A stretch of DNA of 23,083 bases from positions 1-23,083 of IMG/VR virus record IMGVR_UViG_3300021368_000491; one strand, 5' to 3'. The notes under the pieces are model-generated. The model was not told where the DNA came from. It saw nothing but the letters and a program-made list of their open reading frames with translations, and did not search any database. The translations under genes and the position numbers were made by a program. Of the stretch, positions 984 to 17,305 are shown in pieces. Position 1 is the first letter of the stretch. Every line of letters starts with the position of its first letter. This DNA comes from a virus.

Positions 984-1001
984 CTTAAAGTTTAAAAAAT
1001 G

Positions 1002-1041
1002 AAAAAACTCAAAAATCTTAAAATTTAAGTTTTTAAGATTT
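1002..1041 (-). terminator. Terminator-like hairpin in the 5' leader of the KTSC-like gene
   Basis: A perfect 11-bp inverted repeat (AAATCTTAAAA at 1013-1023, TTTTAAGATTT at 1031-1041) has a 7-base loop. On the minus strand it is followed by TTTTTGAGTTTTTT. It lies between the promoter and the start codon, surrounded by repeats of TTTTTGAG. This layout suits an attenuator or early-termination site, but the stem is entirely A/T apart from two G-C pairs, so strength is uncertain. Confidence 0.5.
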
Positions 1042-1091
1042 CTGAAAAACTCAAAAAACTCAAAAAGTGGGTTTTCTGTGTTCTTGATAAT

Positions 1092-1120
1092 ATTATAAAG
1101 CACATCCGAGGGATTTGCAA
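1092..1120 (-). promoter_or_regulatory. Sigma-70-like promoter, TTGCAA-17-TATAAT
   Basis: On the minus strand a -35 box TTGCAA (1120-1115, 4 of 6 consensus) and a perfect -10 box TATAAT (1097-1092) are separated by 17 bases. Transcription would start near 1085, giving a leader of about 100 bases before the KTSC-like gene. The site fits an early phage promoter read by the host polymerase. Confidence 0.7.
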
Positions 1121-1275
1121 GTGTTTTTGCGGGTTTGGGGACACTTTGAGAACTGGCACACCTCGACTTGACTTTCGATGGGTTGCGTGCTAAGCCAACG
1201 TCTCCAGAGTACCTTTACAGATCCTTCACAGTAACTACACAGCAGCTAGACCCCATTTATTTAACCTTTTTTTAT

Positions 1276-1309
1276 TATTGATTCTCAACTAGCAACTCTT
1301 ATTGAGAAC
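1276..1309. repeat. Inverted and direct repeats of TTCTCAATAAG
   Basis: TATTGATTCTCAA at 1276-1288 is the exact 13-base inverted partner of TTGAGAATCAATA at 1350-1362. A further copy (TTATTGAGAAC, 1299-1309) lies between and pairs locally with the first over about seven bases. On the minus strand the copies at 1309 and 1358 are direct repeats of TTCTCAATAAG. Possible readings are nested hairpins or binding sites for a dimeric repressor; the TGAGAAT core loosely resembles cyanobacterial Fur boxes, which is speculative. Confidence 0.5.
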
Positions 1310-1338
1310 CCTTGGTATGACTGACGCGCAAGCACTTC

Positions 1339-1362
1339 AAAAAACCTTATTGAGAATCAATA
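1339..1362 (-). terminator. Probable terminator after the 2OG oxygenase gene
   Basis: Thirteen bases after the stop codon, the minus strand reads TATTGA-TTC-TCAATA, then AAGG and TTTTTT. The stem has 6 bp and is A/T-rich, so it is weak, but the T-tract and position at the end of a long run of overlapping genes support a terminator. The left arm can also pair over 13 bp with 1276-1288. Confidence 0.5.
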
Positions 1363-1374
1363 GCAGAGGGTGTC

Positions 1375-1992
1375 TCACCAATACAGTTCAAACGGTCCAA
1401 CCTTGTCATCTTGTGGGTTAATTGTCATGCTTATGTTCCATGCTATGCTAATTCTATCCTCTGTTCCATTGTTTTGTTCTACCCAATGTGGTAAGTATGC
1501 AGGGAACAGTAATAGATCACCTCTCTTAGGTTGTATTCTAAATTGTGGTGCTGCTCTTGTATCTTGTACTAGCTTATTGTTAGTGAATGTAGTCGTATTA
1601 AATGCACCTGTATGAATCATTGGATTAACAAACACAATACCTGTATCTGCTTCATTCTTTAGGTAGTATACTACAGAGTAATCAGCATTAGGGTGTGTAT
1701 GGTAAACGTTAGTTGATTGTGGAGGATTGATGTTAATCCAATCAGGTTGATGATAGGTAGGGCGTCTGCATACTTCTTGTAGTATCTTATCTACTTCTTG
1801 TTTAACTGGTTGTAGTAGTTCTGTTTCTAAGTATAGAGATTGCCAACTACCTTGTCCTGATCTTTGGGGGTATTTTGTTGCATTATCTTGTGCCTTCTGT
1901 TCGTAACAGTATGCTATCAACTCATCAATGTTTATGTTGTAGTTGTTGTGATAGAGTAATGTTGGGAACAGGGGGATGATATTATACATCAC
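1375..1992 (-). CDS. 2OG-Fe(II) oxygenase, phage type, 205 aa
   Basis: A putative 2-oxoglutarate- and Fe(II)-dependent dioxygenase of the type annotated in T4-like cyanophages (TIGR02466-like). The iron site is visible as H-T-H-P-N-A-D at residues 98-104 (candidate ligands His98 or His100 and Asp104), with the distal His169 in LPHW. The 2-oxoglutarate-binding Arg is probably Arg180 in EDRISIAWNI. GDLLLFP (158-164) is the usual strand before the distal His. The length is normal for the family. The substrate is unknown; relatives hydroxylate proteins, nucleic acids or small molecules. It overlaps the upstream gene by 4 bases (ATGA) and is the last gene of the operon. A second, related oxygenase lies at 4029-4610. 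Confidence 0.85.
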   Translation of the reverse strand: MMYNIIPLFPTLLYHNNYNINIDELIAYCYEQKAQDNATKYPQRSGQGSWQSLYLETELLQPVKQEVDKILQEVCRRPTYHQPDWININPPQSTNVYHTHPNADYSVVYYLKNEADTGIVFVNPMIHTGAFNTTTFTNNKLVQDTRAAPQFRIQPKRGDLLLFPAYLPHWVEQNNGTEDRISIAWNISMTINPQDDKVGPFELYW

Positions 1993-2180
1993 TTAAATCC
2001 CTTTGCTTGTTGTTGGTAGTCCATGACTGTAACCTTAGCACCAGTAGTATTAGCTTGTTGAAACCACCATGCTCTCATCATAGTATAGTCTTCAAATGTA
2101 TGTGCTCTACCATCAGGATAGGACACAACATAGAAATGCCTATCATATGGTTTATCACATGTTTGGGTGAAGTTTTTCAC
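1989..2180 (-). CDS. Small protein, 63 aa, unknown function
   Basis: Encodes MKNFTQTCDKPYDRHFYVV followed by SYPDGRAHTFEDYTMMRAWWFQQ, an alpha/beta-looking layout with a short strand, a DGR turn and a Trp-rich helix. I recall comparable short proteins in T4-like cyanophages, but no function is known. It overlaps the downstream oxygenase by ATGA and the upstream 70-aa gene by 26 bases, so translational coupling to both neighbours is likely. The composition, with balanced charge and aromatic residues, supports a real protein. Confidence 0.7.
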   Translation of the reverse strand: MKNFTQTCDKPYDRHFYVVSYPDGRAHTFEDYTMMRAWWFQQANTTGAKVTVMDYQQQAKGFK

Positions 2181-2367
2181 GTTTAACTGTTTGATAGTAT
2201 AGTTTGTAGTACCGTTGTTTCATTTGTGTGATAATAGCATTATCATCATCAAATGCCATGTACTTCGTCAGTTGATAGCAACCTTCTAGTTCTGAGATGA
2301 GTCGTAGTATGTTAATGGACGATTGTTCTAGTCCACCATGTGTCCATTTATCGTGTTCTTTTGACAC
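2155..2367 (-). CDS. Small helical protein, 70 aa, GTG start
   Basis: Reads MSKEHDKWTHGGLEQSSINI and continues as a mostly helical, basic protein with a Tyr-rich stretch (QRYYKLYYQ). I do not recognise a family. The start is a GTG at 2367-2365 with GGAGA about nine bases upstream. An out-of-frame ATG nearby (2372) would not give this protein. The gene overlaps the 27-aa membrane miniprotein gene by 20 bases and the downstream gene by 26 bases. The overlaps and the ribosome-binding site support it, but its size keeps certainty moderate. Confidence 0.65.
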   Translation of the reverse strand: MSKEHDKWTHGGLEQSSINILRLISELEGCYQLTKYMAFDDDNAIITQMKQRYYKLYYQTVKREKLHPNM

Positions 2368-2431
2368 CCCATGTCATCTCCATAGTGATAGTAATTAATA
2401 TCATGAATAGTAGGATGAATAGTGTGCTCAT
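2348..2431 (-). CDS. 27-aa membrane miniprotein
   Basis: An ATG at 2431-2429 opens a 27-codon frame whose first 16 residues (MSTLFILLFMILITIT) are almost wholly hydrophobic, followed by MEMTWGVKRTR with a basic end. This is a single membrane helix with a positively charged tail, probably facing the cytoplasm. The ATG overlaps the stop of the upstream 52-aa gene by ATGA, the same coupling used by its neighbours, and this is the main argument that it is translated. The function is unknown. Small phage membrane peptides can act on host membrane proteins or on lysis, but nothing here shows that. Confidence 0.55.
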   Translation of the reverse strand: MSTLFILLFMILITITMEMTWGVKRTR

Positions 2432-2586
2432 GTCAAGCGCAGACGATAATCCTTTAGTTTCTGTACTAATTGTTCATGATGTGTGGTGCCTGGTTCAATC
2501 ATCTCTCGTGCTCGTGCTACATCATAGGATGACATAGTGTGCAATGCTTTGAGTATGTGATCTACTTCGTCTAGTGAGAGGTTCAT
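2428..2586 (-). CDS. Small helical protein, 52 aa, unknown function
   Basis: The protein begins MNLSLDEVDHILKALHTMSS and continues SYDVARAREMIEPGTTHHEQ before a C-terminal helix with a basic end. It looks like three amphipathic helices and a compact soluble miniprotein. No family is recognised. The ATG overlaps the stop of the upstream 54-aa gene by ATGA, and its own stop overlaps the next ATG by ATGA. It therefore belongs to a tightly coupled chain behind the consensus promoter at 2753-2781. Confidence 0.7.
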   Translation of the reverse strand: MNLSLDEVDHILKALHTMSSYDVARAREMIEPGTTHHEQLVQKLKDYRLRLT

Positions 2587-2747
2587 GACTGTGTGGTGTA
2601 ATCGATTTCTACTGGGACTGATGCACCATCATCATAGTATGTTGTGTCTATGCTGATGCCAAACTCTGCCAGTTCTAAGAGTGTTTGCTCTTCAATCTCC
2701 TTAATCCATTCGTCTTTGGTCATGGCAGTATTGACAGCAGAGTTCAT
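2583..2747 (-). CDS. Small acidic protein, 46-54 aa, unknown function
   Basis: The frame opens at an ATG at 2747-2745 (54 aa) with a second in-frame ATG at 2723-2721 (46 aa, MTKDEWIKEIEEQTLLELAE). The perfect promoter just upstream predicts transcription starting at about 2746. The first ATG would then be leaderless, so the second start is the better candidate for that transcript. Read-through mRNA from the upstream operon could still use the first. The protein has an acidic N-terminal helix followed by a FGISIDTTYYDDGASVP strand segment. No family is recognised. It is first in a chain of genes overlapping by ATGA. Confidence 0.65.
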   Translation of the reverse strand: MNSAVNTAMTKDEWIKEIEEQTLLELAEFGISIDTTYYDDGASVPVEIDYTTQS

Positions 2748-2752
2748 ATCTA

Positions 2753-2781
2753 ATTATACTGTTTTAATTGAACTGTGTCAA
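2753..2781 (-). promoter_or_regulatory. Perfect consensus promoter, TTGACA-17-TATAAT
   Basis: On the minus strand TTGACA (2781-2776) and TATAAT (2758-2753) are both exact matches to the bacterial sigma-70 consensus with the optimal 17-base spacer. The -35 and spacer lie inside the 3' end of the 48-aa membrane gene. Predicted transcription start is near 2746, at the first ATG of the next gene. It probably adds extra expression to the six genes down to 1375. Confidence 0.85.
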
Positions 2782-2910
2782 GTTATGATACACTGTTTCA
2801 ATATGCATGTTCCCTTTGATATAACCACCAATGATGATAGCTATGGCAAATAGGAAAGCGCCGACAATTGAGAGTGATAGGGGGAGTTTATCAGGATTAG
2901 GATCTGACAT
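2764..2910 (-). CDS. Single-span membrane protein, 48 aa
   Basis: Starting at the ATG at 2910, the protein has a short polar N-terminus (MSDPNPDKLP), one hydrophobic segment of about 22 residues (LSLSIVGAFLFAIAIIIGGY, about 11-31) and a polar tail KGNMHIETVYHNLTQFN. The frame is open 16 codons further, but that longer version would overlap deeply with the upstream gene. The chosen start overlaps it by only 14 bases. It is a small inner-membrane protein of unknown role. Its last codons double as the -35 and spacer of a consensus promoter. Confidence 0.65.
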   Translation of the reverse strand: MSDPNPDKLPLSLSIVGAFLFAIAIIIGGYIKGNMHIETVYHNLTQFN

Positions 2911-3088
2911 AACGTTGTGTTCTAACTGGACCAGTGAGTGGATCAGATAAGGGCACACTCGTATAACACATTAGTTTATAGTCGCGTGGTTTAAGGTTAG
3001 AGCGTTCGATCTGATCTACGGCGTGGTCAAAACACATGTACCATGATAGATTAAACTTACCAGTGCGTGGTTCAAGACGCCATGGCAT
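2897..3088 (-). CDS. Small protein, 63 aa or longer, unknown function
   Basis: From the ATG at 3088 the protein reads MPWRLEPRTGKFNLSWYMCF and continues through a helix (DHAVDQIERSNL) and a strand-like segment KLMCYTSVPLSD. This looks like a folded small protein. The frame stays open upstream to a TTG at 3367 (156 codons), but that extension is a Lys/Ser/Thr-rich sequence lying out of frame over the AbrB-like gene and is probably not translated. The few residues just upstream (HTRCANIDLFPVN) look protein-like, so the true start may be slightly earlier, for example the GTG at 3097. No clear ribosome-binding site decides this. Confidence 0.55.
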   Translation of the reverse strand: MPWRLEPRTGKFNLSWYMCFDHAVDQIERSNLKPRDYKLMCYTSVPLSDPLTGPVRTQRYVRS

Positions 3089-3131
3089 ACTATTCACTGG
3101 GAATAGATCAATGTTAGCGCATCTGGTGTGT

Positions 3132-3383
3132 TTAACCCCACGATCCTTGAGCTTCGGGCGAGTAGAAGACTTGACCGAAGGTTTCTTGGATGTATTCTTG
3201 GATGATGTCTTTTTTGTACTGAGAGACGCTACGTTCTTTTCTAACGCTGATTGAGTTGTCGCTCTGGATTTCCCAGACGAGCGTGTCACCTTCTTGCCAG
3301 TTGAGTTCTTGGCGGATGTCGTGCGGGATTTCGATGTAGTAGTCTTTCGTGTCGGCATGTTGCTCAATTCTTAATGTAACCAT
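3132..3383 (-). CDS. AbrB/MazE-like small DNA-binding protein, 83 aa
   Basis: Residues 14-48 follow the swapped-hairpin AbrB pattern: a strand YYIEIP, a short helix HDIRQELNW, then GDTLVWEI and the SISVRK strand. AbrB/SpoVT-type proteins dimerise through this fold and bind DNA as transition-state regulators or antitoxins. No toxin gene is evident beside it. The C-terminal 34 residues (SVSQYKKDIIQEYIQETFG region) form a helix not typical of minimal AbrB domains. The start at 3383 has AGAGG only three bases upstream, so spacing is short. It overlaps the metallopeptidase gene by 20 bases. The DNA-binding role is inferred from fold similarity only. Confidence 0.6.
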   Translation of the reverse strand: MVTLRIEQHADTKDYYIEIPHDIRQELNWQEGDTLVWEIQSDNSISVRKERSVSQYKKDIIQEYIQETFGQVFYSPEAQGSWG

Positions 3384-4053
3384 TTTCCTCTAACCATTGA
3401 CGTGTGAGTGGGGTCGGTTCATAATCTGTCCACATTGTACCACGAGCGCACGATTCTAGTGCTTCCATGGTCATGTTCTCCGTCTTGCCTGCCCATGTAG
3501 CTTCCGCTTCCCATGGTTGTGCTGCGGGAGGATACGTGCGCTTGACCATCTCTGCCCAGATTGGTGGTACTGCATCCTCTGGTTTGATGATGGCAATCAT
3601 ACTATTCTTGATAGTACCTGCCATACAATCTTGTGCAGCGTGCCATCCTTCATGACGTACAACACTCATCAATACATGTGGTTGATACATGTATGCTTTG
3701 TTGAGATAGAAGTGATTACTCACAGTATGGTACACACCACGATGACTATGAGGGAAATACTTCTCATCAGCAAGATGTACATGCACACCAATCTTCTTGA
3801 ATGCAATCATGATCTGATCAAATTCATCCTTAACATAGTCCCAATTAGCATCAGGATATGCATTCATCAGATCAATCGATGAGTTGATGCGCTCCACACC
3901 ATTGGTACACTCTTTGAGGAGCATACAACCCATAGCATCCATACTATAGAATCCCTTGGTGATCTTATCCTCATTAGCTAATGCACCATGAGCAAGACCC
4001 AACGCGAAACCAGCAGCAATGACCTGCTTCAGTAGTTTATGTGAATGTTCCAT
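3364..4053 (-). CDS. Secreted zinc metallopeptidase (HExxH), 229 aa
   Basis: The N-terminus has a basic start and a hydrophobic core (VIAAGFALGLAHGALA), then a likely signal-peptidase site after Ala26, predicting export to the periplasm. The zinc motif H-E-G-W-H is at residues 134-138, with His134 and His138 as ligands and Glu135 as the catalytic base. A candidate third ligand lies in PWEAEATWAG (Glu182 or Glu184), as in gluzincin-type enzymes. Cys43, Cys49, Cys143 and Cys202 could form two disulphides after export. The substrate is unknown; envelope or cell-surface proteins are plausible. It overlaps the oxygenase gene upstream by 25 bases and the AbrB-like gene downstream by 20 bases. AGGA lies about ten bases before the ATG. 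Confidence 0.75.
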   Translation of the reverse strand: MEHSHKLLKQVIAAGFALGLAHGALANEDKITKGFYSMDAMGCMLLKECTNGVERINSSIDLMNAYPDANWDYVKDEFDQIMIAFKKIGVHVHLADEKYFPHSHRGVYHTVSNHFYLNKAYMYQPHVLMSVVRHEGWHAAQDCMAGTIKNSMIAIIKPEDAVPPIWAEMVKRTYPPAAQPWEAEATWAGKTENMTMEALESCARGTMWTDYEPTPLTRQWLEENGYIKN

Positions 4054-4610
4054 GAAATACTAATCCTATCTTCTTGTGTGTTGTTTTCTGATACACGATG
4101 AATAAGATTAGATGGAAAGATGAGACCATTACCTTCTACTGGTGGAAACCACATAGAAGTGAATGTAATCATGTCCTCTTTCAACTTTGGATTCATCGCA
4201 TCTAGTAGTCTGAACTGATTGAAGTAACTTGGGTTCTCAATCTCGATCTTACCACAATCACCTTCTGGAACCTTTACATAGAATACTGCCGCAAGATCAC
4301 ATCCTGGGTGTGTATGCTTATGATTAAATGATCCTGGTGTGTTGACATTGTACCATACACTTCCAATACTATACTGTAGTTCTTCTGTCAACAGTTGTGA
4401 CATAATACTATCTACAGATTTGAAGAGTAGTTTGGGTGATGGTTCTTGTTTAGGAGACTGCCAACCACCTGCATTAGATAGTTTGACAGACTCCGTGACT
4501 TCTTTTACCTCATAGATGTGGTCAATGGTCTCATCCCGAATAAGACTATACTCAGGCACACTGAATGAGATAATAGGTGAGGGGAACGCTGATATACAAT
4601 TAACGGTCAT
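4029..4610 (-). CDS. 2OG-Fe(II) oxygenase, phage type, 193 aa
   Basis: A second putative 2-oxoglutarate/Fe(II) dioxygenase. The iron-binding segment is NHKHTHPGCD (residues 96-105; candidate His99 or His101 with Asp105), the distal His171 is in LIHR, and the 2-oxoglutarate-binding Arg182 is in EDRISISWNI. The N-terminal half carries the GGWQSP segment (48-53) typical of these phage proteins. It shares the overall plan and the EDRISI-x-WNI ending with the protein at 1375-1992, so the two are probably paralogues, but outside the active site they differ strongly, suggesting different substrates. It overlaps the upstream 37-aa gene by 11 bases and the peptidase gene by 25 bases. Confidence 0.85.
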   Translation of the reverse strand: MTVNCISAFPSPIISFSVPEYSLIRDETIDHIYEVKEVTESVKLSNAGGWQSPKQEPSPKLLFKSVDSIMSQLLTEELQYSIGSVWYNVNTPGSFNHKHTHPGCDLAAVFYVKVPEGDCGKIEIENPSYFNQFRLLDAMNPKLKEDMITFTSMWFPPVEGNGLIFPSNLIHRVSENNTQEDRISISWNIHINY

Positions 4611-4713
4611 CAGTTAGTTTCCTCATCGTATTAATCTCATGTAGAATCAGTTCTGCCTGAGCATGATCACCTCTATTGGAGGCGTCGATATAGTTCATAA
4701 TCAACGCCTTCAT
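4600..4713 (-). CDS. Small protein, 37 aa, unknown function
   Basis: The ATG at 4713 opens MKALIMNYIDASNRGDHAQA followed by ELILHEINTMRKLTDDR. This reads as two amphipathic helices with a turn at NRGDH, similar to a single helical-repeat hairpin. AGAAGG lies about eleven bases upstream, inside the end of the preceding gene. The frame is open further upstream, but that part would lie over the 73-aa gene and has a Ser/Lys-rich shadow-like composition. The stop overlaps the start of the oxygenase gene by 11 bases. No family is recognised. Confidence 0.6.
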   Translation of the reverse strand: MKALIMNYIDASNRGDHAQAELILHEINTMRKLTDDR

Positions 4714-4720
4714 GGTATCA

Positions 4721-4942
4721 TCAACCTTCTGTGAGTTCAATGAAGTGTTGGAAGAGTGCTTCTTCATCGTAGAACAATGTTTCTTCGGTATGTAGTTGTT
4801 CGGGATCCAACCACTCAAAGAACTCATCAGCAAGAGCTAGTGCATCATCAAGACGATCCTCTGCCATCAGTTGCTTGAATCGACCAGTTGCCCACTCATA
4901 GATGTCGTCGCGACGTGAAGAGATCAGTTCGTCAATGCTCAT
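4721..4942 (-). CDS. Acidic helical protein, 73 aa, unknown function
   Basis: Begins MSIDELISSRRDDIYEWATG and is rich in Asp, Glu and Leu, with predicted helices throughout (RFKQLMAEDRLDDALALADE, then FFEWLDPEQ). The charge is strongly acidic. No domain is recognised; acidic helical miniproteins in phages can act as inhibitors or DNA mimics, but nothing specific supports that here. Its ATG overlaps the stop of the 85-aa gene by ATGA. It ends seven bases before the start of the 37-aa gene. Confidence 0.7.
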   Translation of the reverse strand: MSIDELISSRRDDIYEWATGRFKQLMAEDRLDDALALADEFFEWLDPEQLHTEETLFYDEEALFQHFIELTEG

Positions 4943-5196
4943 TTCTTAAAAAGGGTAAGTTTGTTCTGGAGGTGGTCGTAAGACTTGAATTCTACATCAC
5001 GAGGCAGCATACGGTTGAGTGCTGCTGCAAAATCGTTAGGAAACTTAGAGAATGCTCGCCAGTAACGTTGAACACCATCATCATCGAGATCAGCACGAGG
5101 AGTTACCGCAATGGTATACTCACCCATAGTGTAACGACTAGGGAATGGTTCTACTAGCGTGGTGATGTAATCTGCTAGTGGATTGGGTTTACTCAT
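4939..5196 (-). CDS. Small protein, 85 aa, unknown function
   Basis: Begins MSKPNPLADYITTLVEPFPS. A beta-like middle (YTMGEYTIAVTPRADLDDDG) is followed by a helical segment (VQRYWRAFSKFPNDFAAALN) and a basic C-terminus ending LTLFKK. The mixed alpha/beta pattern suggests a small folded domain. No family is recognised. It overlaps both neighbours by ATGA (with 5193-5423 upstream and 4721-4942 downstream), so the three genes are translationally coupled. Confidence 0.7.
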   Translation of the reverse strand: MSKPNPLADYITTLVEPFPSRYTMGEYTIAVTPRADLDDDGVQRYWRAFSKFPNDFAAALNRMLPRDVEFKSYDHLQNKLTLFKK

Positions 5197-5423
5197 TTGA
5201 CAAAGACCTCTTGATTGTGTTCATTGGTAAGTGCTTGTGCTTGCACGAGGAGTTGACACATGTGGGCAACGTATTCAATATCTTCGTCGCATGGATCGAA
5301 ATCGTAAGCACAATCCCAATCTACAGTGCCATCCAGTCTGACTGGAGCACCGAATGCAACATTGTCATCATCTAGAGCGTAGGCATTGCCGTCAGCAACG
5401 ATGTAGAAGTTTGGAGCAGACAT
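5193..5423 (-). CDS. Small acidic protein, 76 aa, first gene of the left-middle operon
   Basis: Begins MSAPNFYIVADGNAYALDDD, followed by a short beta pattern (VAFGAPVRLDGTVDWDCAYDF), an acidic DPCDEDIEY turn and a C-terminal helix. It could bind metal through the acidic and Cys residues, but this is not established. No family is recognised. It lies about 30 bases behind the TTGACA-17-TACAAT promoter, so it is the first gene of the run that continues through overlapping genes to 2764 and further. Its stop overlaps the next ATG by ATGA. No strong ribosome-binding site is visible. Confidence 0.7.
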   Translation of the reverse strand: MSAPNFYIVADGNAYALDDDNVAFGAPVRLDGTVDWDCAYDFDPCDEDIEYVAHMCQLLVQAQALTNEHNQEVFVK

Positions 5424-5450
5424 GAGAAGAAGAAGTAAGGTGACCTATGT

Positions 5451-5479
5451 ATTGTATATTATAATGAGCGGCGTGTCAA
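5451..5479 (-). promoter_or_regulatory. Sigma-70 promoter, TTGACA-17-TACAAT
   Basis: On the minus strand a perfect -35 box TTGACA (5479-5474) is followed after 17 bases by TACAAT (5456-5451), five of six consensus. An alternative TATAAT is too close to the -35 to be used with it. Predicted start is near 5444, some 20 bases before the ATG of the 76-aa gene. The -35 box overlaps the stop codon of the 131-aa gene upstream. Confidence 0.8.
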
Positions 5480-5871
5480 CTCTTGTAGAGGTAACCGCCT
5501 GCCCAGTCGCAATGCTCGTATACGTGCTCACGACTTGCGGAATCAGATAGGTCAAAACGAACATCCTTAGCAGGACCACGCCATGATGCTGCCTTGTATA
5601 GTTCACCAGTCTTCTTGTCAACAAATGCATGTACACTACGCTGGTTGCTGACCATAACGACCTTGTGATACTTACGACCACTCTCAATCACGAAATCGTA
5701 GTCACACTTGCCATCCTTGAACTCTTGGATACGCTCCTCATGATACTGAGGATTGTCAGAGCTAGGGATGAGGAACTTGTGACGACGAATGTTCTCCTCG
5801 ATGAAGTTTTGCTTGAGTGCTTCGCAAAGCATCTCAGTGTAGTTAAGGATTTCCTGTTGAGTGGTGGGCAT
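5476..5871 (-). CDS. Conserved-looking protein, 131 aa, unknown function
   Basis: From the ATG at 5871 the protein begins MPTTQQEILNYTEMLCEALK, then ENIRRHKFLIPSSDNPQYHE. A well-formed C-terminal part contains YHKVVMVSNQRSVHAFVDKK followed by GELYKAASWRGPAK and WAGGYLY. I recall this VHAFVDKKTG...KAASW...WAGGYLY arrangement as a recurrent T4-like cyanophage protein, without known function. The frame is open 45 codons further upstream, but that part would cross the gene at 5918-6133 and has an unconvincing Cys/Arg-rich composition. A possible extended -10 promoter sits at 5896-5904. Confidence 0.75.
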   Translation of the reverse strand: MPTTQQEILNYTEMLCEALKQNFIEENIRRHKFLIPSSDNPQYHEERIQEFKDGKCDYDFVIESGRKYHKVVMVSNQRSVHAFVDKKTGELYKAASWRGPAKDVRFDLSDSASREHVYEHCDWAGGYLYKS

Positions 5872-5895
5872 TGGGTCTCTTTGTTTGATGAACTT

Positions 5896-5904
5896 AGTAT
5901 AGCA
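5896..5904 (-). promoter_or_regulatory. Possible extended -10 promoter, TGCTATACT
   Basis: The minus strand reads TG-C-TATACT, 24 bases before the ATG of the 131-aa gene. The TGn extension can replace a -35 box; none of good quality is visible 16-18 bases upstream. It could equally be a middle-type promoter. Modest support only. Confidence 0.35.
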
Positions 5905-5917
5905 AGGCAGGAAGCGA

Positions 5918-6133
5918 TTACACGCTACCTTGTGCAACTTCTGCAAGTGGCACACGCTTGACGGTGAGACGACGCCATCCACGCACTTCACGAATACCAT
6001 TGACAACTTGGTTCACAACGTTGTTATGCTGACGGTTAAGTCCACGCATGGACTTGGTAGCAGGACGTGTGATGTAGAAGATGCTGGTGGTCAGATCTTC
6101 GTTGTCGATGCTGACTTCGTAAGCGTTAGGCAT
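5918..6133 (-). CDS. Small basic protein, 71 aa, unknown function
   Basis: Begins MPNAYEVSIDNEDLTTSIFY and continues ITRPATKSMRGLNRQHNNVV, then a helix (NQVVNGIREVRG) and a basic strand (WRRLTVKRVPLAEV). The net charge is positive and the pattern is beta-beta-alpha-beta, compatible with a small nucleic-acid-binding fold, which is inference only. The leader (6134-6164) is nearly the same as that of the gene at 6549-6785, with AGGGA about eight bases before the ATG. Confidence 0.7.
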   Translation of the reverse strand: MPNAYEVSIDNEDLTTSIFYITRPATKSMRGLNRQHNNVVNQVVNGIREVRGWRRLTVKRVPLAEVAQGSV

Positions 6134-6164
6134 GGGTGGTGTCCCTGTCGATGTCCTTATTATA
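6134..6164 (-). promoter_or_regulatory. Shared 5' leader, copy A, with TATAAT box
   Basis: On the minus strand TATAAT (6164-6159) is followed by AAGGACATCGACAGGGACAC and CACCC up to the ATG. The 3' part (CAGGGACACCACCC) almost repeats the leader at 6786-6814. No good -35 box lies 16-18 bases upstream, so an activator-dependent or -10-only promoter is possible. Confidence 0.45.
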
Positions 6165-6171
6165 GAGTCAA

Positions 6172-6342
6172 TCAGTGACCATGCAGGCGTTGATGGGGCA
6201 GTTTCTTGAGTGGCACATTCTTCTGCTTTTGGAGACGGAGTTCATCTACAGTGATCTCCAGCGATGCTGCTTCCTCTTCTTCAGTGAGTTCTTTCCATGA
6301 CCCACCAACACCTCCATCCATGTTTACTACGATTTCACTCAT
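6172..6342 (-). CDS. Small acidic protein, 56 aa, unknown function
   Basis: From the ATG at 6342 it reads MSEIVVNMDGGVGGSWKELT, then a run of Glu (EEEEAASLEITVDELRLQ) and a basic end (KQKNVPLKKLPHQRLHGH). The sharp change from acidic middle to basic tail is notable. No family is recognised. The frame is open 16 codons further upstream, but the chosen start overlaps the 55-aa gene by only 8 bases (ATGAGTGA), typical for this genome. The gene ends 38 bases before the next start. Confidence 0.65.
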   Translation of the reverse strand: MSEIVVNMDGGVGGSWKELTEEEEAASLEITVDELRLQKQKNVPLKKLPHQRLHGH

Positions 6343-6502
6343 GATAGTTAAGTAATGATTGTTGTAACTGGTCGTGCAATTGAATGTCACTCATGCCATT
6401 TCTAGCTGCAAGACGCTCACAAATGTTGGGATCTACATCCCACATCATGTCAATAATAAAATTGACCTGATTAGCAGTCAAATCGATAGATTGGGTTTCC
6501 AT
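6335..6502 (-). CDS. Small protein, 55 aa, unknown function
   Basis: The ATG at 6502 opens METQSIDLTANQVNFIIDMM followed by WDVDPNICERLAARNGMSDI and a Gln-rich helix (QLHDQLQQSLLNYHE). The predicted structure is helical, and the protein looks real by composition. No family is recognised. It starts behind the paired hairpins at 6521-6563 and overlaps the downstream 56-aa gene by 8 bases, suggesting coupling. Confidence 0.65.
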   Translation of the reverse strand: METQSIDLTANQVNFIIDMMWDVDPNICERLAARNGMSDIQLHDQLQQSLLNYHE

Positions 6503-6520
6503 AACAATAATAGGTTAGAA

Positions 6521-6563
6521 GGGCGTTCTAGACGCCCCTAGACGCCTCTCAGCAAGCGAGAGG
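6521..6563 (-). terminator. Two tandem hairpins at and after a stop codon
   Basis: On the minus strand CCTCTC-GCTTGCT-GAGAGG (6563-6545) contains the TGA stop of the 78-aa gene in its loop and right arm. The second stem GGGCGT-CTAGA-ACGCCC (6537-6521) follows at once. GGCGTCTAG is directly repeated between and within them. The T-tract after the second stem is weak (TTCTAACCTATT). They could be a partial terminator or an mRNA-stabilising structure. Confidence 0.5.
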
Positions 6564-6785
6564 GGAATAATCGGAACCAGTGTACTCTTCAGTGTTGATG
6601 GCAGTCACTACAGCACCGTTGGCGACGTAGTTACGAACTTCGTACTGCATCTCAGTCTTGAGTTTAGTAGCGAAGTAGACCATCTCACTCTCAGAACCAG
6701 GATGCCAAACGACTTTCTTAACAAATCGCTTGCCAGTGCCAACAGGATAGTAATCGATCTTGGTGGCAGAAGTAAAGAGTTGCAT
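6549..6785 (-). CDS. Small protein, 78 aa, unknown function
   Basis: Begins MQLFTSATKIDYYPVGTGKR and continues through beta-like segments (FVKKVVWHPGSESEMVYFAT, MQYEVRNYVANGAVVTAINT) to SPLAC. The alternation of hydrophobic and polar residues suggests a small beta-rich domain. No family is recognised. Its leader nearly duplicates that of the 71-aa gene, with AGGGA about seven bases before the ATG, and its stop codon lies in a hairpin. It may be the first gene of its own transcript. Confidence 0.7.
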   Translation of the reverse strand: MQLFTSATKIDYYPVGTGKRFVKKVVWHPGSESEMVYFATKLKTEMQYEVRNYVANGAVVTAINTEEYTGSDYSPLAC

Positions 6786-6814
6786 GGGTGGTTCCCTTGA
6801 CGACCTCTATAATA
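6786..6814 (-). promoter_or_regulatory. Shared 5' leader, copy B, with TATTAT box
   Basis: The minus strand reads TATTATAGAGGTCGTCAAGG and then GAACCACCC up to the ATG. Compared with copy A at 6134-6164 most positions agree, especially in the last 14 bases. As there, no convincing -35 box is visible. Confidence 0.45.
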
Positions 6815-6835
6815 TACATGGTGCGGAGGTCACGC

Positions 6836-6867
6836 GGACAGTCTAGTGGACACTAGCTTAACTGTCC
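6836..6867. other. Long bulged hairpin, GGACAGT...ACTGTCC
   Basis: GGACAGT pairs with ACTGTCC (7 bp) and inside it CTAGTG pairs with CACTAG (6 bp) around a 2-base loop, with a 4-base bulge on one side. On the minus strand the bulge holds the TAA stop of the 52-aa gene at 6858-7016. No T-tract follows on either strand. It could be a transcript-stabilising structure or a binding site. Confidence 0.5.
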
Positions 6868-7016
6868 CCATAGATGGGGATGATGTCAGTGCGACAATGC
6901 TGCGTCTTGTTGATGTGCTGTTCCCACAGAGCGGCATCGTCCAAATTGTAAAAGATCGCTTGTTGGCGGGCGGTGCCCTTCTTCTTGTTCTTCATCCAAA
7001 CGACTGCGTACTTCAT
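6858..7016 (-). CDS. Small protein, 52 aa, embedded start inside upstream gene
   Basis: The ATG at 7016 opens MKYAVVWMKNKKKGTARQQA followed by IFYNLDDAALWEQHINKTQH and IIPIYGDS. The pattern of strand, basic loop, strand, helix and strand, and the ending IIPIYGDS, look strongly protein-like; I recall similar short proteins in T4-like cyanophages. Most of the gene (131 bases) is overlapped by the 3' part of the 103-aa reading frame at 6886-7197 in another frame. No ribosome-binding site is visible, so translation may depend on ribosomes translating the upstream gene. Confidence 0.7.
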   Translation of the reverse strand: MKYAVVWMKNKKKGTARQQAIFYNLDDAALWEQHINKTQHCRTDIIPIYGDS

Positions 7017-7197
7017 GCCAAAATTGAGGGTAGACTAGAATGTTAACATAGTGACGACCCCACCGTGAATTTGCACTCTTGGGCAGTGGGATGTCCTTAA
7101 AGCAAATAGTGATGTACTCTTCGCTTATGAAAGAAATATAACCTGTTACATGCCCATATGCAACAGGTTGTAGCAATTCAAAATCATTCTTGTTCAT
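6886..7197 (-). CDS. Protein of 103 aa with a probably altered C-terminus
   Basis: From the ATG at 7197 it reads MNKNDFELLQPVAYGHVTGY, then ISFISEEYITICFKDIPLPK and a RHYVNILVYPQFW segment, a beta-rich small domain that I recall from T4-like cyanophages. After residue 62 the sequence turns into a polar stretch without structure-like pattern (SRLDEEQEEGHRPPTS and on). It is read out of frame over the clearly protein-like 52-aa gene at 6858-7016. The first 60 residues are probably the ancestral protein and the last 40 a read-through tail. A longer start at 7257 is less likely because it would cross the coiled-coil gene. Confidence 0.65.
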   Translation of the reverse strand: MNKNDFELLQPVAYGHVTGYISFISEEYITICFKDIPLPKSANSRWGRHYVNILVYPQFWHEVRSRLDEEQEEGHRPPTSDLLQFGRCRSVGTAHQQDAALSH

Positions 7198-7381
7198 CGA
7201 ACAACTTACGATCCTTGTTTTGTGGTTTAGGCAACCTGAACATCTGTTTAAGATCATTCAGTTCGCTCAGTTGCTTTTGCAGGTTATCAATCTGTGCCTG
7301 CAAAATCTGAAAATTGGCGTCGTTGTTGTTCTGCATCATCAAAATGTTGTTGATTGCAGTTTTGAATTCCTCTTCGTTCAT
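7184..7381 (-). CDS. Coiled-coil protein, 65 aa
   Basis: Begins MNEEEFKTAINNILMMQNNN and continues into heptad-like repeats (FQILQAQIDNLQKQLSELND), then a basic end PKPQNKDRKLFDEQE. The leucine/isoleucine spacing predicts a parallel coiled coil, so a small oligomerising protein. The function is unknown. Its start lies 95 bases inside the upstream 81-aa reading frame, and it overlaps the downstream gene by 14 bases. Confidence 0.65.
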   Translation of the reverse strand: MNEEEFKTAINNILMMQNNNDANFQILQAQIDNLQKQLSELNDLKQMFRLPKPQNKDRKLFDEQE

Positions 7382-7532
7382 TGTGAATCACATTAGTAAG
7401 TTGACGTTCTAGTTCAACCTGAACCATGATAAGTTTACCACACATGTAGTCACGGTAATCATTCTCTTTGATCAGGTTAGCAACATTATGTAGCTGTTGA
7501 ATTGCAGTCAACAGTCTGGTTTTCTCATCCAT
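7287..7532 (-). CDS. Helical protein, 81 aa, overlaps downstream gene by 95 bases
   Basis: From the ATG at 7532 it begins MDEKTRLLTAIQQLHNVANL and continues IKENDYRDYMCGKLIMVQVE with a long helix through LERQLTNVIHN. The remaining 30 residues (after Asn 51) run out of frame over the start of the coiled-coil gene and are Gln/Arg-rich. That part may be a by-product of the overlap. The ATG shares one base with the upstream TGA (TGATG). No family is recognised. Confidence 0.6.
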   Translation of the reverse strand: MDEKTRLLTAIQQLHNVANLIKENDYRDYMCGKLIMVQVELERQLTNVIHNERRGIQNCNQQHFDDAEQQRRQFSDFAGTD

Positions 7533-7774
7533 CAATATCTATCAGGAATAAGATCAACAAAACGATGACCAGTCATTAGATCACGAAGTTCACGAGCACG
7601 AACATATTGTTTCTCGTGATACTTGATTACATCATCGACGCAAGATAGCATCTCTTCATATGCCTGTCGTGGCGATACTTTGTCATCTTGGAGGTAATCG
7701 TCGATAGCATCTTGCATACGACAAAGGCGTTGCTTTTCATAAGTGTTGTCAGGTTGAATGATGGGTGATGTCAT
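7532..7774 (-). CDS. Helical protein, 80 aa, unknown function
   Basis: Begins MTSPIIQPDNTYEKQRLCRM, followed by QDAIDDYLQDDKVSPRQAYE and a second helical pair (MLSCVDDVIKYHEKQYVRAR). It ends in a short TGHRFVDLIPDRY segment. The layout of several amphipathic helices suggests a small four-helix or oligomeric protein. No family is recognised. It overlaps the downstream gene by one base and shares TAATG with the upstream 61-aa gene. Confidence 0.65.
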   Translation of the reverse strand: MTSPIIQPDNTYEKQRLCRMQDAIDDYLQDDKVSPRQAYEEMLSCVDDVIKYHEKQYVRARELRDLMTGHRFVDLIPDRY

Positions 7775-7959
7775 TAAAATTCCTCGTTACGACGACGGTC
7801 AAGATAAGCAATGATCTCACCACGCCACTCAAGTAATTCATGGTAGCATTTCTGATCATGTGCATCTTGACGTAGCTCATGGTCTGGTTTGAGAACACTC
7901 TCATAAAAGATGAAGAAAGCGTCTTTACGTTTCTCTTGTTTGTTGGTGTCCCAATCCAT
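7774..7959 (-). CDS. Charged helical protein, 61 aa, unknown function
   Basis: Begins MDWDTNKQEKRKDAFFIFYE and continues SVLKPDHELRQDAHDQKCYH to a basic end (AYLDRRRNEEF). It is highly charged and probably all-helical. No family is recognised. It is the first gene behind the intergenic segment at 7960-8031, which holds a promoter candidate and a pseudoknot-like structure. Its stop overlaps the next start by one base (TAATG). Confidence 0.65.
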   Translation of the reverse strand: MDWDTNKQEKRKDAFFIFYESVLKPDHELRQDAHDQKCYHELLEWRGEIIAYLDRRRNEEF

Positions 7960-7982
7960 TTGATCTTAGCGTAGGTGATAGT

Positions 7983-8010
7983 ATTTTAGATTGTTTTAAT
8001 AGGAAATCAA
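7983..8010 (-). promoter_or_regulatory. Promoter candidate, TTGATT-16-TAAAAT
   Basis: On the minus strand TTGATT (8010-8005, four of six consensus) and TAAAAT (7988-7983, five of six) are 16 bases apart. Predicted start is about 17 bases before the ATG of the 61-aa gene. Both boxes lie within the overlapping stems at 7986-8027, so structure in read-through RNA and promoter use on DNA share the same bases. Confidence 0.5.
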
Positions 8011-8027
8011 GACAATCTAATGATTTC
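7986..8027 (-). other. Overlapping stems: pseudoknot or switch-like RNA
   Basis: On the minus strand GAAATCA (8027-8021) pairs with TGATTTC (8009-8003), seven perfect pairs with an 11-base loop. The first nine loop bases, TTAGATTGT (8020-8012), pair perfectly with ACAATCTAA (7994-7986) eight bases downstream of the first stem. The two stems are therefore either alternatives or form an H-type pseudoknot. The element lies between the stop of the 92-aa gene and the 61-aa gene. Function unknown. Confidence 0.5.
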
Positions 8028-8031
8028 TTTA

Positions 8032-8310
8032 TTATTGAGGAGGACCAGCAGGTCCCCACCCATCGTTCTCAGGGACACAATCATCATCGTCCACACGGTC
8101 AACTGATGCAATGTCACATACTGGCACCTCATGTTCACCACCTACGAGATACCATGGCATGACGATACCATGATATTCTGGATGTGCTTGGAAGTCAACA
8201 GGGTATTCTTTATCACCCAGATACTTTAGTTCGCTTTCTGGAATAGCGTTGTCTCGTAACATTGCTTGTAGCTGCAAGTGCGTCAACTCGTACTGCGTGG
8301 GTACTCTCAT
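8032..8310 (-). CDS. Acidic protein, 92 aa, unknown function
   Basis: The ATG at 8310 is chosen because GGAGA lies four bases upstream. The protein begins MRVPTQYELTHLQLQAMLRD and continues NAIPESELKYLGDKEYPVDF. The C-terminal half (PWYLVGGEHEVPVCDIASVD and on) is rich in Asp and ends in a flexible GWGPAGPPQ. Tandem TAA stops follow. The longer frame open to 8493 would lie over the DUF4385 gene and is not convincing. With the chosen start the gene still overlaps that gene's 3' end by 98 bases. No family is recognised. Confidence 0.65.
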   Translation of the reverse strand: MRVPTQYELTHLQLQAMLRDNAIPESELKYLGDKEYPVDFQAHPEYHGIVMPWYLVGGEHEVPVCDIASVDRVDDDDCVPENDGWGPAGPPQ

Positions 8311-8764
8311 TAGATCTCCAAAGTTTGCGTTGTTTTTTGTATTCTTCATTGTTTGCAACGATGTCACGTACTCTCTTGAATATCTGAGCACTGCGATTAT
8401 AGTCGCAGGTCCAGTGGTCAGATTCCTGAGGGCGGACCTCACCATTGTCATCATACTTTGTACCTGAGTGATGGTTAGCGTATCGACGAGCACGAGTAAA
8501 TCCCATCTCTAGAAACTTACGACACATATCCATACCTACAAAGTCTTTAGCGTCTCTGTAGTCAAGATACATTGCATAGATTTTGTTTGCAGACTTAACT
8601 GCTAGCTCGGGAGTTCTGAATTTCCAATGAGCACAAATGTCGTTTGTATAAGGGCGAACCAGTAGAACTCCTTGTTCTCCCCTACCGATACGATAAAGTT
8701 CGTGAGTTTCTGGATCTGTAAAGTCAAGTTCCTCGTAAGGTAGTTCATAGCAAAATTCAAGCAT
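8213..8764 (-). CDS. DUF4385 family protein, 183 aa
   Basis: The protein matches the DUF4385 pattern: LYRIGRGEQGVLLVRPY (23-39), HWKFRTPELA (46-55), a helix with KIYAMYLDY (61-69) and KDFVGMDMCRKFLEMGFTRA (73-92), then RRYANHHSGTKYD. The family is found in phages and bacteria; its biochemical function is not known. The last 30 residues lie out of frame over the start of the 92-aa gene and look basic and unstructured, unlike the family core. It is the first gene behind a TTGACA-17-TAGGAT promoter. The start codon is 22 bases after the predicted -10 box. Confidence 0.8.
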   Translation of the reverse strand: MLEFCYELPYEELDFTDPETHELYRIGRGEQGVLLVRPYTNDICAHWKFRTPELAVKSANKIYAMYLDYRDAKDFVGMDMCRKFLEMGFTRARRYANHHSGTKYDDNGEVRPQESDHWTCDYNRSAQIFKRVRDIVANNEEYKKQRKLWRSNESTHAVRVDALAATSNVTRQRYSRKRTKVSG

Positions 8765-8786
8765 GGATCTCGTGCTCGCTGTCGCT

Positions 8787-8815
8787 ATCCTACCACACTG
8801 TCAAGGGGGTGTCAA
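8787..8815 (-). promoter_or_regulatory. Sigma-70 promoter, TTGACA-17-TAGGAT
   Basis: On the minus strand a perfect TTGACA (8815-8810) is followed after 17 bases by TAGGAT (8792-8787, four of six consensus). A second TTGACA sits inside the spacer (8803-8798) but has no good -10 partner. The -35 box overlaps the last codon and stop of the 129-aa late gene, marking the boundary between the late block and the small-gene block. Confidence 0.7.
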
Positions 8816-9201
8816 CCAGGGTCAGTCGGATCCTCGTTAATGTATGGGATTGTACCGTTAGGTTTTACAACATATGCAGGTATCCTAAACGCTGCATTTG
8901 GTAAGTTCTGTGGTTGTGGGAACCAGTCACAACAGTTGTCTACAGCAATCTGTTCTGTCTTAAAAATATAGAATGTATGCTTTTGTGCAAAGACTTCATC
9001 AATTTCTGATTCTGGAATGATCCATCTTGCTTCACCATCCTCATCTACACTCTTATAATATGCATACATCAATGCTTTATCATCTGTAGATAATGAATGA
9101 TATGCAGTATTATCAATTACAACAACACATTTATTCTCTAGCTCTGCTAGACGTGCTGCCATTTCACCAATAGTCTTAGGATTTAATGAGATAAGTGCCA
9201 T
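8812..9201 (-). CDS. Conserved cyanophage protein next to fibre genes, 129 aa
   Basis: Begins MALISLNPKTIGEMAARLAE, then CVVVIDNTAYHSLSTDDKAL, RWIIPESEIDEVFAQKHTFY and ends GTIPYINEDPTDPG. I recall a very similar conserved protein in T4-like cyanophages next to tail genes; the function is unassigned. The position directly after the assembly-chaperone gene, overlapping it by one base (TGATG), suggests a role in tail-fibre or baseplate assembly, by inference. Two adjacent Cys occur near residue 89. It is the last gene of the late block. Confidence 0.75.
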   Translation of the reverse strand: MALISLNPKTIGEMAARLAELENKCVVVIDNTAYHSLSTDDKALMYAYYKSVDEDGEARWIIPESEIDEVFAQKHTFYIFKTEQIAVDNCCDWFPQPQNLPNAAFRIPAYVVKPNGTIPYINEDPTDPG

Positions 9202-10022
9202 CAGAGTCCTCCATCATCGATAGAACGTAGAATAGCGTCAAGAGTATTAGTCTCATTATATACTCTATTTTGTGGCATTCCATCTACCTGTTCAGTAGTA
9301 ATTGCCATTGCCATGTAAGACATTGCTCTACCAGCAAACTTACGATATACTGACTGTGCAATATGGAAGAACTGATCATCAGATCCTAAGTATTCTCCTA
9401 ATTCAGAGTTGTTAGCTAACATCTCTGCATACTTCTTAGGACTGATTGGAAACTTAACGTTGATAGGAGGAATTGATTGTTGTTCTTGTGGAATATTTCT
9501 TAATTTTGTTCTGTATGCAACCCACAATGCTTTCTCATCATCAGTAAGAGGAGCATCAGCAAGTTGTGACCAGTCACTATCCATAAGTAGGAAGTTTCTG
9601 ACCATTGTAATCTTAGTCCAGTTTACATATTCATCAGCAGCAAACTGTGCAGCAAGTTTACCCTCTAGACTAATATCATCTAGACCTCTAAACTCAGTAT
9701 ACTTTGCTTCTAGTTTATTATAAAGATCATCAATCTCAGACTGCTCAAATGCAGAGAGATTCATTTCATAAGAAACCCACTTGTATTCACCAGTTCTTTG
9801 GTTTCTTTGAAATTTATTTTTGTTCATTAGGGTGAGACCTGTCTCATACCTAATAAAACTCTCTAATTTATCCTTATCCGAATCCCACAGAGGATATAGA
9901 ATAGGAACAATCTCATCTTTCCAAAAGTCATCAGTAATGACTTTGGTCACACCTTTTCTTGCCATCGTTCTATTGATGGCATTCAGATATAGTGCTACAT
10001 CTTGTGAAGAATACTCGCTCAT
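9201..10022 (-). CDS. Protein with tail-fibre assembly chaperone-like segment, 273 aa
   Basis: Residues about 140-178 carry the signature of phage tail assembly chaperone proteins (Phage_tail_APC type): MVRNFLLMDSDW, then SQLADAPLTDDEKALWVAYR and KLRNIP, close to the classic R-x-x-L-L-x-x-S-D-W ... D-x-P-L ... W-x-x-Y-R-x-x-L-R-x-I-P pattern. Such proteins help fold or attach tail fibres. The flanking N-terminal 135 residues and C-terminal 90 residues are unrelated to that motif and make the protein much longer than simple chaperones. It lies right after the collar and fibre genes, which fits. A TAAATA late-promoter-like site is 34 bases upstream of the start. Confidence 0.75.
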   Translation of the reverse strand: MSEYSSQDVALYLNAINRTMARKGVTKVITDDFWKDEIVPILYPLWDSDKDKLESFIRYETGLTLMNKNKFQRNQRTGEYKWVSYEMNLSAFEQSEIDDLYNKLEAKYTEFRGLDDISLEGKLAAQFAADEYVNWTKITMVRNFLLMDSDWSQLADAPLTDDEKALWVAYRTKLRNIPQEQQSIPPINVKFPISPKKYAEMLANNSELGEYLGSDDQFFHIAQSVYRKFAGRAMSYMAMAITTEQVDGMPQNRVYNETNTLDAILRSIDDGGL

Positions 10023-10055: not shown

Positions 10056-10061
10056 TATTTA
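10056..10061 (-). promoter_or_regulatory. Late-promoter-like TAAATA box
   Basis: The minus strand reads CTAAATAC across the stop codon of the 1521-aa gene, 34 bases before the ATG of the chaperone-like gene. T4-like cyanophage late promoters carry a TAAATA core, so this could start late transcription of the two small assembly genes. Such a short A/T motif can occur by chance. Confidence 0.35.
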
Positions 10062-16051: not shown

Positions 16052-17305
16052 TTAAAATGCCCTCATTATAACAAGAGTAGTAAGTGAAGGTGTATTAGGG
16101 TTAATTTGCACGCTCAAAGCTTTGTCAACACTAACAGGTGCAATAGTTCCCGTCGTCATATTATTTATGAGCGTAGTGCTAGGGATTCTCATTTGTCCCC
16201 TAGTCATTGACAAATCAATTGTAAAATGATTATGTGATGCAAGTCCAGGTTCTGTCCAGTTGGTTGCGTTATGATTCAACGTAACAGGATATGGTCCCTC
16301 ATTTCTAGCTTGTGTAACATTACTACTTGCATATGCATTTTTAAATCCATTGTATCTGCCCTCTGGAGGGAATGGAGCAGAGACAGCAGGAACATCTACT
16401 TGAGGAATACATGAGTAATCATCATCATAATCCTCTACAATTGAATAGTATTGTTGAATAGTTCTTGGACTAGATGCTGATCTAGCTTGTGGAATAGTTT
16501 GTGAAGCAGCAGTAAAGTCACGGAATGTACTACAATCTACTAAACTATCTGCAAGTGGATCGTACCATGTAAGTTGAACTTCTCCAGGAACAAAGTTATC
16601 TACTGTATCTTCACCAGGGAGTGGTTCTGGTGTAACAGTTGTCCATTCATTTCCTTGTGTATCATATGTACCAGGCATGAATGTTGCAACATATGTACCC
16701 TGTACGTTTGCTGATGGATAGCTACCTGTAGTACCATCAGAATTAGACGGTCTAGGGTGAGTGTGTGCAGGAGTATGATCAACACCTAGTTTTCTAGGAA
16801 TAGTTCTATAAGTGTCAAAGAATGCTGGTTCCTCTAACGTAATACCAGTAATTTTACCAGCTAATGTAGTGGATCCATCAACAGCGAAGTTTACATCAAT
16901 ATACGAGGTAATAAGATTCAAAGGTGCTGCGTCATTTCCATTCTCTGTGATATATTGACCAACAACAGCATTATCTGCAGGATCCAATCTAGAAGATTCC
17001 AAGTCAACCATGCTACAGTTGTTTAGATTAGGAAGCATGAATACATCTTCTTCATCATAGTTTGGATATGTATTTTGAATACCAACTGCAGGACCTCCTG
17101 GTTCCTGAAAAGGACCATATGTATTACCTAACAATTGTGCCAGAAGAGGATAATCAAGTGCTCTTAATGATTGTCCTCTACAAACAATATACCCAAAAGG
17201 GATTGCGTCCTCTGCAACAGCAGATGAACTGGATGAACCCGTCCAAGGCATGATTGTTCCAATTGGAACTGCCTTGGCGGATTTAATTCTGTTGTAATTT
17301 GCCAT
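16052..17305 (-). CDS. Tail-collar fibre protein, 417 aa
   Basis: A third collar-domain protein. PIGTIMPW (14-21), FGYIVCRGQSLRALDYPLLA (37-56) and VFMLPNLNN (88-96) form the collar domain, close to the classic G-T-I-x-x-W ... G-x-x-x-C-D-G pattern, with Arg replacing Asp in CRG. The His motifs are H-T-P-A-H-T-H-P (177-184) and H-N-H (358-360). The C-terminal 60 residues contain SMTRGQMRIPSTTLINN and finish with a beta-like end. The start is secure: GGAGGT lies eight bases upstream, overlapping the TGA-TAA end of the previous gene. It is probably part of the short-fibre or baseplate periphery. Confidence 0.8.
   Translation of the reverse strand: MANYNRIKSAKAVPIGTIMPWTGSSSSSAVAEDAIPFGYIVCRGQSLRALDYPLLAQLLGNTYGPFQEPGGPAVGIQNTYPNYDEEDVFMLPNLNNCSMVDLESSRLDPADNAVVGQYITENGNDAAPLNLITSYIDVNFAVDGSTTLAGKITGITLEEPAFFDTYRTIPRKLGVDHTPAHTHPRPSNSDGTTGSYPSANVQGTYVATFMPGTYDTQGNEWTTVTPEPLPGEDTVDNFVPGEVQLTWYDPLADSLVDCSTFRDFTAASQTIPQARSASSPRTIQQYYSIVEDYDDDYSCIPQVDVPAVSAPFPPEGRYNGFKNAYASSNVTQARNEGPYPVTLNHNATNWTEPGLASHNHFTIDLSMTRGQMRIPSTTLINNMTTGTIAPVSVDKALSVQINPNTPSLTTLVIMRAF

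Follow-up and report, generated by a model that had tools for sequence, protein, structure and literature searches.

Which part of its host would a cyanophage attack with an exported metallopeptidase? The question is raised by a viral DNA of 23,083 bases (the window), which looks like T4-like cyanophage DNA and which carries on its minus strand an ORF with an ATG start for a protein of 229 amino acids. A first-pass annotation had placed this ORF exactly, giving no strand, and had read its product as a periplasmic HExxH zinc protease, made with early small genes rather than virion genes, that might act on host envelope proteins, exclude other phages or help lysis. Judging from its motifs, its conservation and its N-terminus, we consider it very probable that the protein is an exported HExxH metallopeptidase. 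We further propose, giving this a little less than an even chance, that it is a Sec-exported gluzincin-type zinc peptidase which, together with a lysozyme of the family PHROG 512, attacks the envelope of Synechococcus, most likely during lysis. The features on which the argument draws are collected in Table 1.

Table 1. Features of the zincin locus, in positions of the window
Feature	Positions	Strand	Basis or remark
Zincin ORF, 229 aa, PHROG 591, predicted exported	3364..4053	-	ORF call, profile match, conservation
Predicted Sec-type signal peptide, residues 1-26 (MEHSHKLLKQVIAAGFALGLAHGALA), cleavage near ALA|NE	3976..4053	-	composition; N-termini of relatives variable yet always signal-like
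C43...C49, probable local disulphide	3907..3927	-	invariant
HEGWH (H134, E135, H138), followed by invariant A139 A140 Q141 D142 C143	3640..3654	-	57/57; HExxHxxQD common to the sister family
C143, probable disulphide with C202	3625..3627	-	invariant in PHROG 591; both Cys missing together in the ACG-2014f sister member
WEAEA (W181-A185), candidate third zinc ligand E182 (or E184), helix 176-189	3499..3513	-	E182/E184/A185 invariant in both families; helix from model
C202, probable disulphide with C143	3448..3450	-	invariant in PHROG 591; both Cys missing together in the ACG-2014f sister member
Upstream gene, 2OG-Fe(II) oxygenase (PF13759)	4029..4610	-	overlaps zincin start by 25 bases
Downstream gene, MazE/AbrB-like antitoxin-type protein (PF04014, E 3e-7)	3132..3383	-	overlaps zincin stop by 20 bases
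Sigma-70-like site TTGACA-17-TACAAT, 11/12	5451..5479	-	ahead of the small-gene run ending with the zincin

A widespread family in marine cyanomyoviruses

In the PHROGs collection the protein matches PHROG 591 over its full length (residues 9-228, E 4e-114) and, weakly, PHROG 16003 (E 3e-11); the former is annotated there as "unknown function" and the latter has no assigned function either. By tblastn the PHROG 591 gene is present in 366 phage records, all of them marine cyanomyoviruses, with at least 80% of the query covered in 365, and metagenomic virus contigs hold hundreds more relatives. Databases label the members as hypothetical or, in S-SCSM1 and RB11-B, as 'proteolytic enzyme', a name for which we found no basis. 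Pfam and NCBIfam offered no usable family, and a sequence search against solved structures gave zero matches. In the open-access literature we found no description of a function, structure or partner for the family, and earlier work may exist. The family itself has already been seen and at times named ('proteolytic enzyme', 'metallopeptidase'); the present analysis adds its description as a zincin-like family of exported phage proteins with probable disulphides, an HExxHxxQD / ExEA signature of its own and a lysozyme as partner.

A plasmid search for a host origin returned zero matches, and a scan of genome contigs returned three, all in non-cyanobacterial assemblies and at least one on a phage-sized contig of 188 kb, which we read as stray phage contigs. 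Cyanophage-like contigs within non-cyanobacterial assemblies (L082, L084 and L083, the last being Nonlabens xiamenensis contig NZ_RMVE01000006.1) are likely contamination. Weak control matches of PHROG 591 were seen in Synechococcus elongatus and in Methanocaldococcus jannaschii, the latter possibly selecase. A weak match in P-TIM68 was rejected as a member, being a SprT-like protein that lacks a signal peptide.

Putative active site, cysteines and export signal

Conservation was assessed over 57 aligned sequences (relatives 60-82% identical), in all of which H134, E135, H138, Q141, D142, W181, E182, E184, A185 and the four cysteines are invariant. The HEGWH motif of the first-pass annotation is therefore borne out (residues 134-138; E135 would be the general base), and its possible third glutamate ligand now has two candidates, E182 and E184, which sit in the invariant-residue motif WExEAxWAG; conservation points to E182 (or E184) as the residue that would complete the zinc site. 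An HExxH motif alone can arise by chance, but this one is invariant over hundreds of phages and is thus not a chance match. The two histidines and a downstream glutamate, on whose conservation the first-pass reading had staked itself, are kept in all relatives, as is the glutamate between the histidines.

The window protein has cysteines at positions 43, 49, 143 and 202 only, and the mature part of all 57 relatives has exactly four and none besides, so the two potential disulphides suggested earlier hold at the level of sequence. Pairing of C143 with C202 is supported because the ACG-2014f member of the sister family is without both the cysteine that follows QD and the C-terminal one. Disulphides C143-C202 and C43-C49 are probable.

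The N-terminus behaves differently from the rest of the protein, mean identity to the relatives being 30% over residues 1-26 as against 70% over residues 36-229. By a simple n/h/c-region rule, a signal is nevertheless scored in 55 of the 57 relatives, compared with 61 of 455 similarly sized neighbouring ORFs (13%), and both failures are rows in which the start had been set too late. The N-terminus appears to be under selection to be a signal and not for an exact sequence, which argues for a true export signal, as first proposed. In three zincin relatives (L030, L038 and L054) the N-terminus appears instead to be a long membrane anchor with a linker, not a cleavable signal. Of the exported zinc protease originally described, the export signal, HExxH motif, conserved glutamate and cysteines are thus present, whereas we infer that it binds zinc and is active, where it works (the periplasm, not the thylakoid lumen), when, and on what substrate.

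Predicted fold and related peptidases

An AlphaFold2 model made with the family alignment (pLDDT 89, pTM 0.81) places HExxH in a helix spanning residues 125-145 and ExEA in helix 176-189. Foldseek against viral models retrieved further members from cyanophages along with more distant proteins from ACG-2014f, S-N03 and S-CBP42, and against solved structures its matches were moderate, with E above 0.1. A second structural aligner put IrrE/PprI first, its top score being Z 6.4 over about 90 residues; most other rows of the solved-structure list were HExxH proteins, with selecase, abylysin, BlaR1 and BepA lower. The model therefore likely has a zincin-like core, closest to IrrE/PprI at moderate scores (Z 6.4 at most).

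What the protein would share with the M78-type IrrE/PprI is the core of an HExxH helix and a following glutamate helix, and the same core underlies its likeness to the minigluzincins selecase and abylysin (Z about 4). All three of these proteins are cytoplasmic and without disulphides, unlike the exported zincin, and Pfam M78 gave no match for the zincin family. BepA, of family M48, is a periplasmic HExxH enzyme whose ExEA-type motif is ExEAD. It resembles the zincin in having both motifs, with a weak structural match (Z 3.4), but the M48 Pfam family matched none of the 57 PHROG 591 members and the window protein lacks the aspartate four residues past the third ligand, its residue 186 being threonine. 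Spanins and the Mu releasin offer a likeness of another kind, as phage proteins that act during lysis, at the inner membrane or beyond it; the zincin differs in having neither a lipobox nor a membrane-spanning pair and would be enzymatic, not mechanical. We rejected a spanin identity for it, given its AxA-type signal, the missing lipobox and the globular fold of the model.

A sister family, PHROG 16003, has its best match in a second, shorter exported protein of RB11-B and has further relatives in S-CAM7, S-H34, ACG-2014f, S-CREM2 (annotated as a metallopeptidase), the cyanosiphovirus PSS2 and S-CRES phages. The two families are joined by hhalign (probability 97.3, E 2.5e-11), and their joint alignment has 11 invariant positions, including H134, E135, H138, Q141, D142, E182, E184 and A185. 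Sister proteins resemble the zincin in their signal-like N-terminus, HExxHxxQD, ExEA and mostly paired cysteines, but are about 45 amino acids shorter, only 17-20% identical and without the C43/C49 segment. The S-CREM2 protein (65607-66182) is missing from the virion proteome of that phage (PMC10665884 Table 3). The earlier statement that the zincin is not a virion gene gains from this, with the qualification that the evidence comes from the sister family and not from PHROG 591 itself.

Gene neighbourhood and promoters

The zincin overlaps both of its neighbours in the window. In S-CAM4 the oxygenase and the zincin stand in the same order with a small gene between them, and in Sf-CH3 the MazE/AbrB-like gene and the zincin are arranged as here. 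Two related 2OG-Fe(II) oxygenases (PF13759; minus strand, 1375-1992 and 4029-4610) lie on either side of the zincin, within a distance of 3 kb. The MazE/AbrB-like ORF at 3132-3383 (PF04014) is itself overlapped by about 235 bases, in a different frame of the minus strand, by an ORF at 2897-3367, which encodes a Ser/Thr/Lys-rich protein of 156 amino acids (PHROG 23641/1609, 9 loci); both have relatives and are possibly a true overlapping gene pair. Elsewhere in the window, four large consecutive tail-fibre-like ORFs lie on the minus strand (10059-14624, 14624-16051, 16052-17305 and 17309-22864; the product of 1521 amino acids is Gly-rich), with the gene for a tail assembly chaperone next (9201-10022, PF16778).

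Sigma-70-like sites of the quality of that at 5479-5451 (minus) number three in the 8.3 kb from 1000 to 9300, against 0.32 expected, whereas the T4-type late promoter ATAAATA, with one match against five expected, is uninformative. The upstream site agrees weakly with early rather than late transcription, so the association with 'early small genes' stands as an overlap with a small-gene run below a strong promoter-like sequence, which is weak support. A perfect consensus, TTGACA-17-TATAAT, lies at 2753-2781 (minus), just downstream of the zincin cluster and before another small-gene run.

Across 92 loci in other phages, the neighbours of the zincin include a DUF6450 protein (33), an exported lysozyme (22), PHROG 605 (19), CpeT (17), a plastocyanin-like protein (13), a gp5-like spike (13) and psbA/psbD-like genes (8). 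The DUF6450 protein (PHROG 721; L086:5981-6319 and relatives) is small, with two hydrophobic segments and a holin-like outline. It was not taken as evidence of linkage, occurring in nearly all T4-like genomes (not S-PM2) regardless of the zincin.

Co-occurrence with a lysozyme

The lysozyme, PHROG 512, matches PF18013 (E 8e-14) with an invariant E78, and its predicted structure resembles that of phi29 gp13, a lysozyme (probability 1.00, TM 0.66 on target). Its N-terminus has a signal, lipobox-like cysteine or hydrophobic anchor, then a variable Pro/Glu-rich linker. By sequence and model, PHROG 512 is an exported, N-terminally anchored lysozyme of the phi29 gp13 type.

Among 27 T4-like cyanophage genomes, and counting either zincin family, 12 have zincin and lysozyme, two the zincin alone (S-SSM5 and S-H34), none the lysozyme alone and 13 neither. 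Fisher's exact test gives 6e-6, a value inflated by the relatedness of the genomes. A tree of portal proteins yields seven independent pairs that differ in the zincin; the lysozyme changes the same way in five or six of them and the opposite way in none, which is borderline (p 0.03-0.06). Two control genes showed no link with the zincin (CpeT, p 1.0; PHROG 605, p 0.33). Physical linkage is not the cause of the co-occurrence, as tens of kilobases often separate the two genes (27 kb in Syn2, and a greater distance in RB11-B). Counts over the whole collection point the same way: 366 records have PHROG 591 and 408 have PHROG 512, the latter including ACG-2014f, which has the sister zincin instead.

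Both genes also partly track the host of isolation. The zincin occurs in most Synechococcus myoviruses and is mostly missing from phages isolated on Prochlorococcus; among the Prochlorococcus-isolated myoviruses tested only P-TIM40 (NATL2A) has it, and the tblastn records add P-RSM1 on MIT9303. When tree pairs are compared for zincin and isolation host, four to five of five go one way (p about 0.06). Host alone does not explain the pairing, because S-PM2, from a Synechococcus host, is without both genes and P-TIM40 has both; the effects of host and lysozyme are entangled but not identical.

A possible role in envelope breakdown

Since the co-occurring partner is a wall-cutting enzyme, envelope breakdown is the simplest joint role, and of the options first listed for the protein it is help in lysis that the lysozyme favours. 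The zincin would be made in the cytoplasm during infection and exported through the host Sec system, its signal would be cut at the AxA site, and the two disulphides would form outside the inner membrane. H134, H138 and E182 would hold zinc and E135 would activate water, allowing a host envelope protein to be cut, and together with the anchored lysozyme the enzyme would dismantle the envelope of Synechococcus, most likely when the cell lyses. The likeliest substrates would be, first, the SLH-domain porins tying the outer membrane to peptidoglycan and, second, the anchor or linker of the lysozyme. Peptidoglycan binding by SLH/OprB porins is proposed to tie down and stabilise the outer membrane of cyanobacteria, for example in Synechocystis (PMC8707739); an exported protease would naturally have them as targets. 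A survey of spanins lists Syn1, Syn9, Syn19, Syn33, S-RSM4, S-ShM2, S-SM1, S-SM2, S-SSM5 and S-SSM7 among the spanin-less phages and raises the question of another route through the outer membrane (PMC6139136), and ten phages on the published spanin-less list carry the zincin. That spanin-less Synechococcus phages breach the outer membrane by means of the zincin, which would cut SLH-porin tethers or free the lysozyme and so replace the mechanical spanin step, is an unlikely extension.

Several observations tell against a joint role in lysis. P-HM1, P-SSM2 and S-PM2, also listed as spanin-less, are without both genes and lyse their hosts; lysis in general thus does not depend on the pair. In addition, two zincin carriers, S-SSM5 and S-H34, have no PHROG 512, large distances often separate the two genes, and the sigma-70-like promoter upstream of the gene in the window points to transcription early in infection, not late. 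We therefore hold a part for the zincin in envelope breakdown with the lysozyme to be possible, though on balance somewhat doubtful.

The same co-occurrence could mean that the zincin cuts the linker of the membrane-held lysozyme and so sets the timing of wall degradation. The dependence is indeed one-sided (lysozyme without zincin in 0 of 13 genomes, zincin without lysozyme in 2 of 14), the anchor and linker of PHROG 512 provide something to cut, and Mu gp25 is a precedent for a second phage protein freeing an anchored endolysin (PMC9239132). We nevertheless think this unlikely, as a cleavage site is not evident in the poorly conserved linker, the lipobox is missing in Syn9 and others, the Mu releasin is not a protease, and S-SSM5 and S-H34 retain a zincin with no PHROG 512 to release.

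Cyanobacterial Sec signals lead to the thylakoid lumen too, where the protease could trim or remove lumenal photosystem proteins, alongside phage PsbA/PsbD, plastocyanin and CpeT. The zincin of Syn9 lies directly downstream of psbA and psbD, but photosynthesis genes adjoin it in a minority of loci (counts above) and the presence of CpeT is unrelated to that of the zincin. Many Prochlorococcus phages carry photosynthesis genes, yet phages of this host mostly lack the zincin, and we consider a lumenal role quite improbable. To about the same degree we doubt that the protease cuts surface or periplasmic proteins needed by other phages, in superinfection exclusion or receptor removal; an exported, accessory protein with a variable genome position and a possible early promoter would suit this, but the link with the lysozyme would be left unexplained.

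Action at entry, as an enzyme or virion component working with a virion lysozyme, would fit the annotation of PHROG 512 as 'virion structural protein' in S-TIM5 and S-TIM66 better than lysis does, and a gp5-like spike gene lies nearby in 13 loci; we regard it as very unlikely, given the cleavable Sec signal of the zincin and the virion proteome of S-CREM2, from which the sister protein is missing. Least probable of all is an inactive zincin fold serving as a binding protein or inhibitor, for although some zincin-like structural matches are non-peptidases, the catalytic positions show no variation in either family, over phages of several morphotypes.

Implications

The co-occurrence of zincin and lysozyme suggests that the pair takes the host envelope apart, and it provides a concrete gene pair for how T4-like cyanophages, among the ocean's most abundant viruses, open their hosts. 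A widespread family of 'unknown function' thereby gains an activity that can be tested. Should the zincin act in the lumen or by exclusion instead, it would still be an exported phage protease that is kept by most Synechococcus myoviruses.
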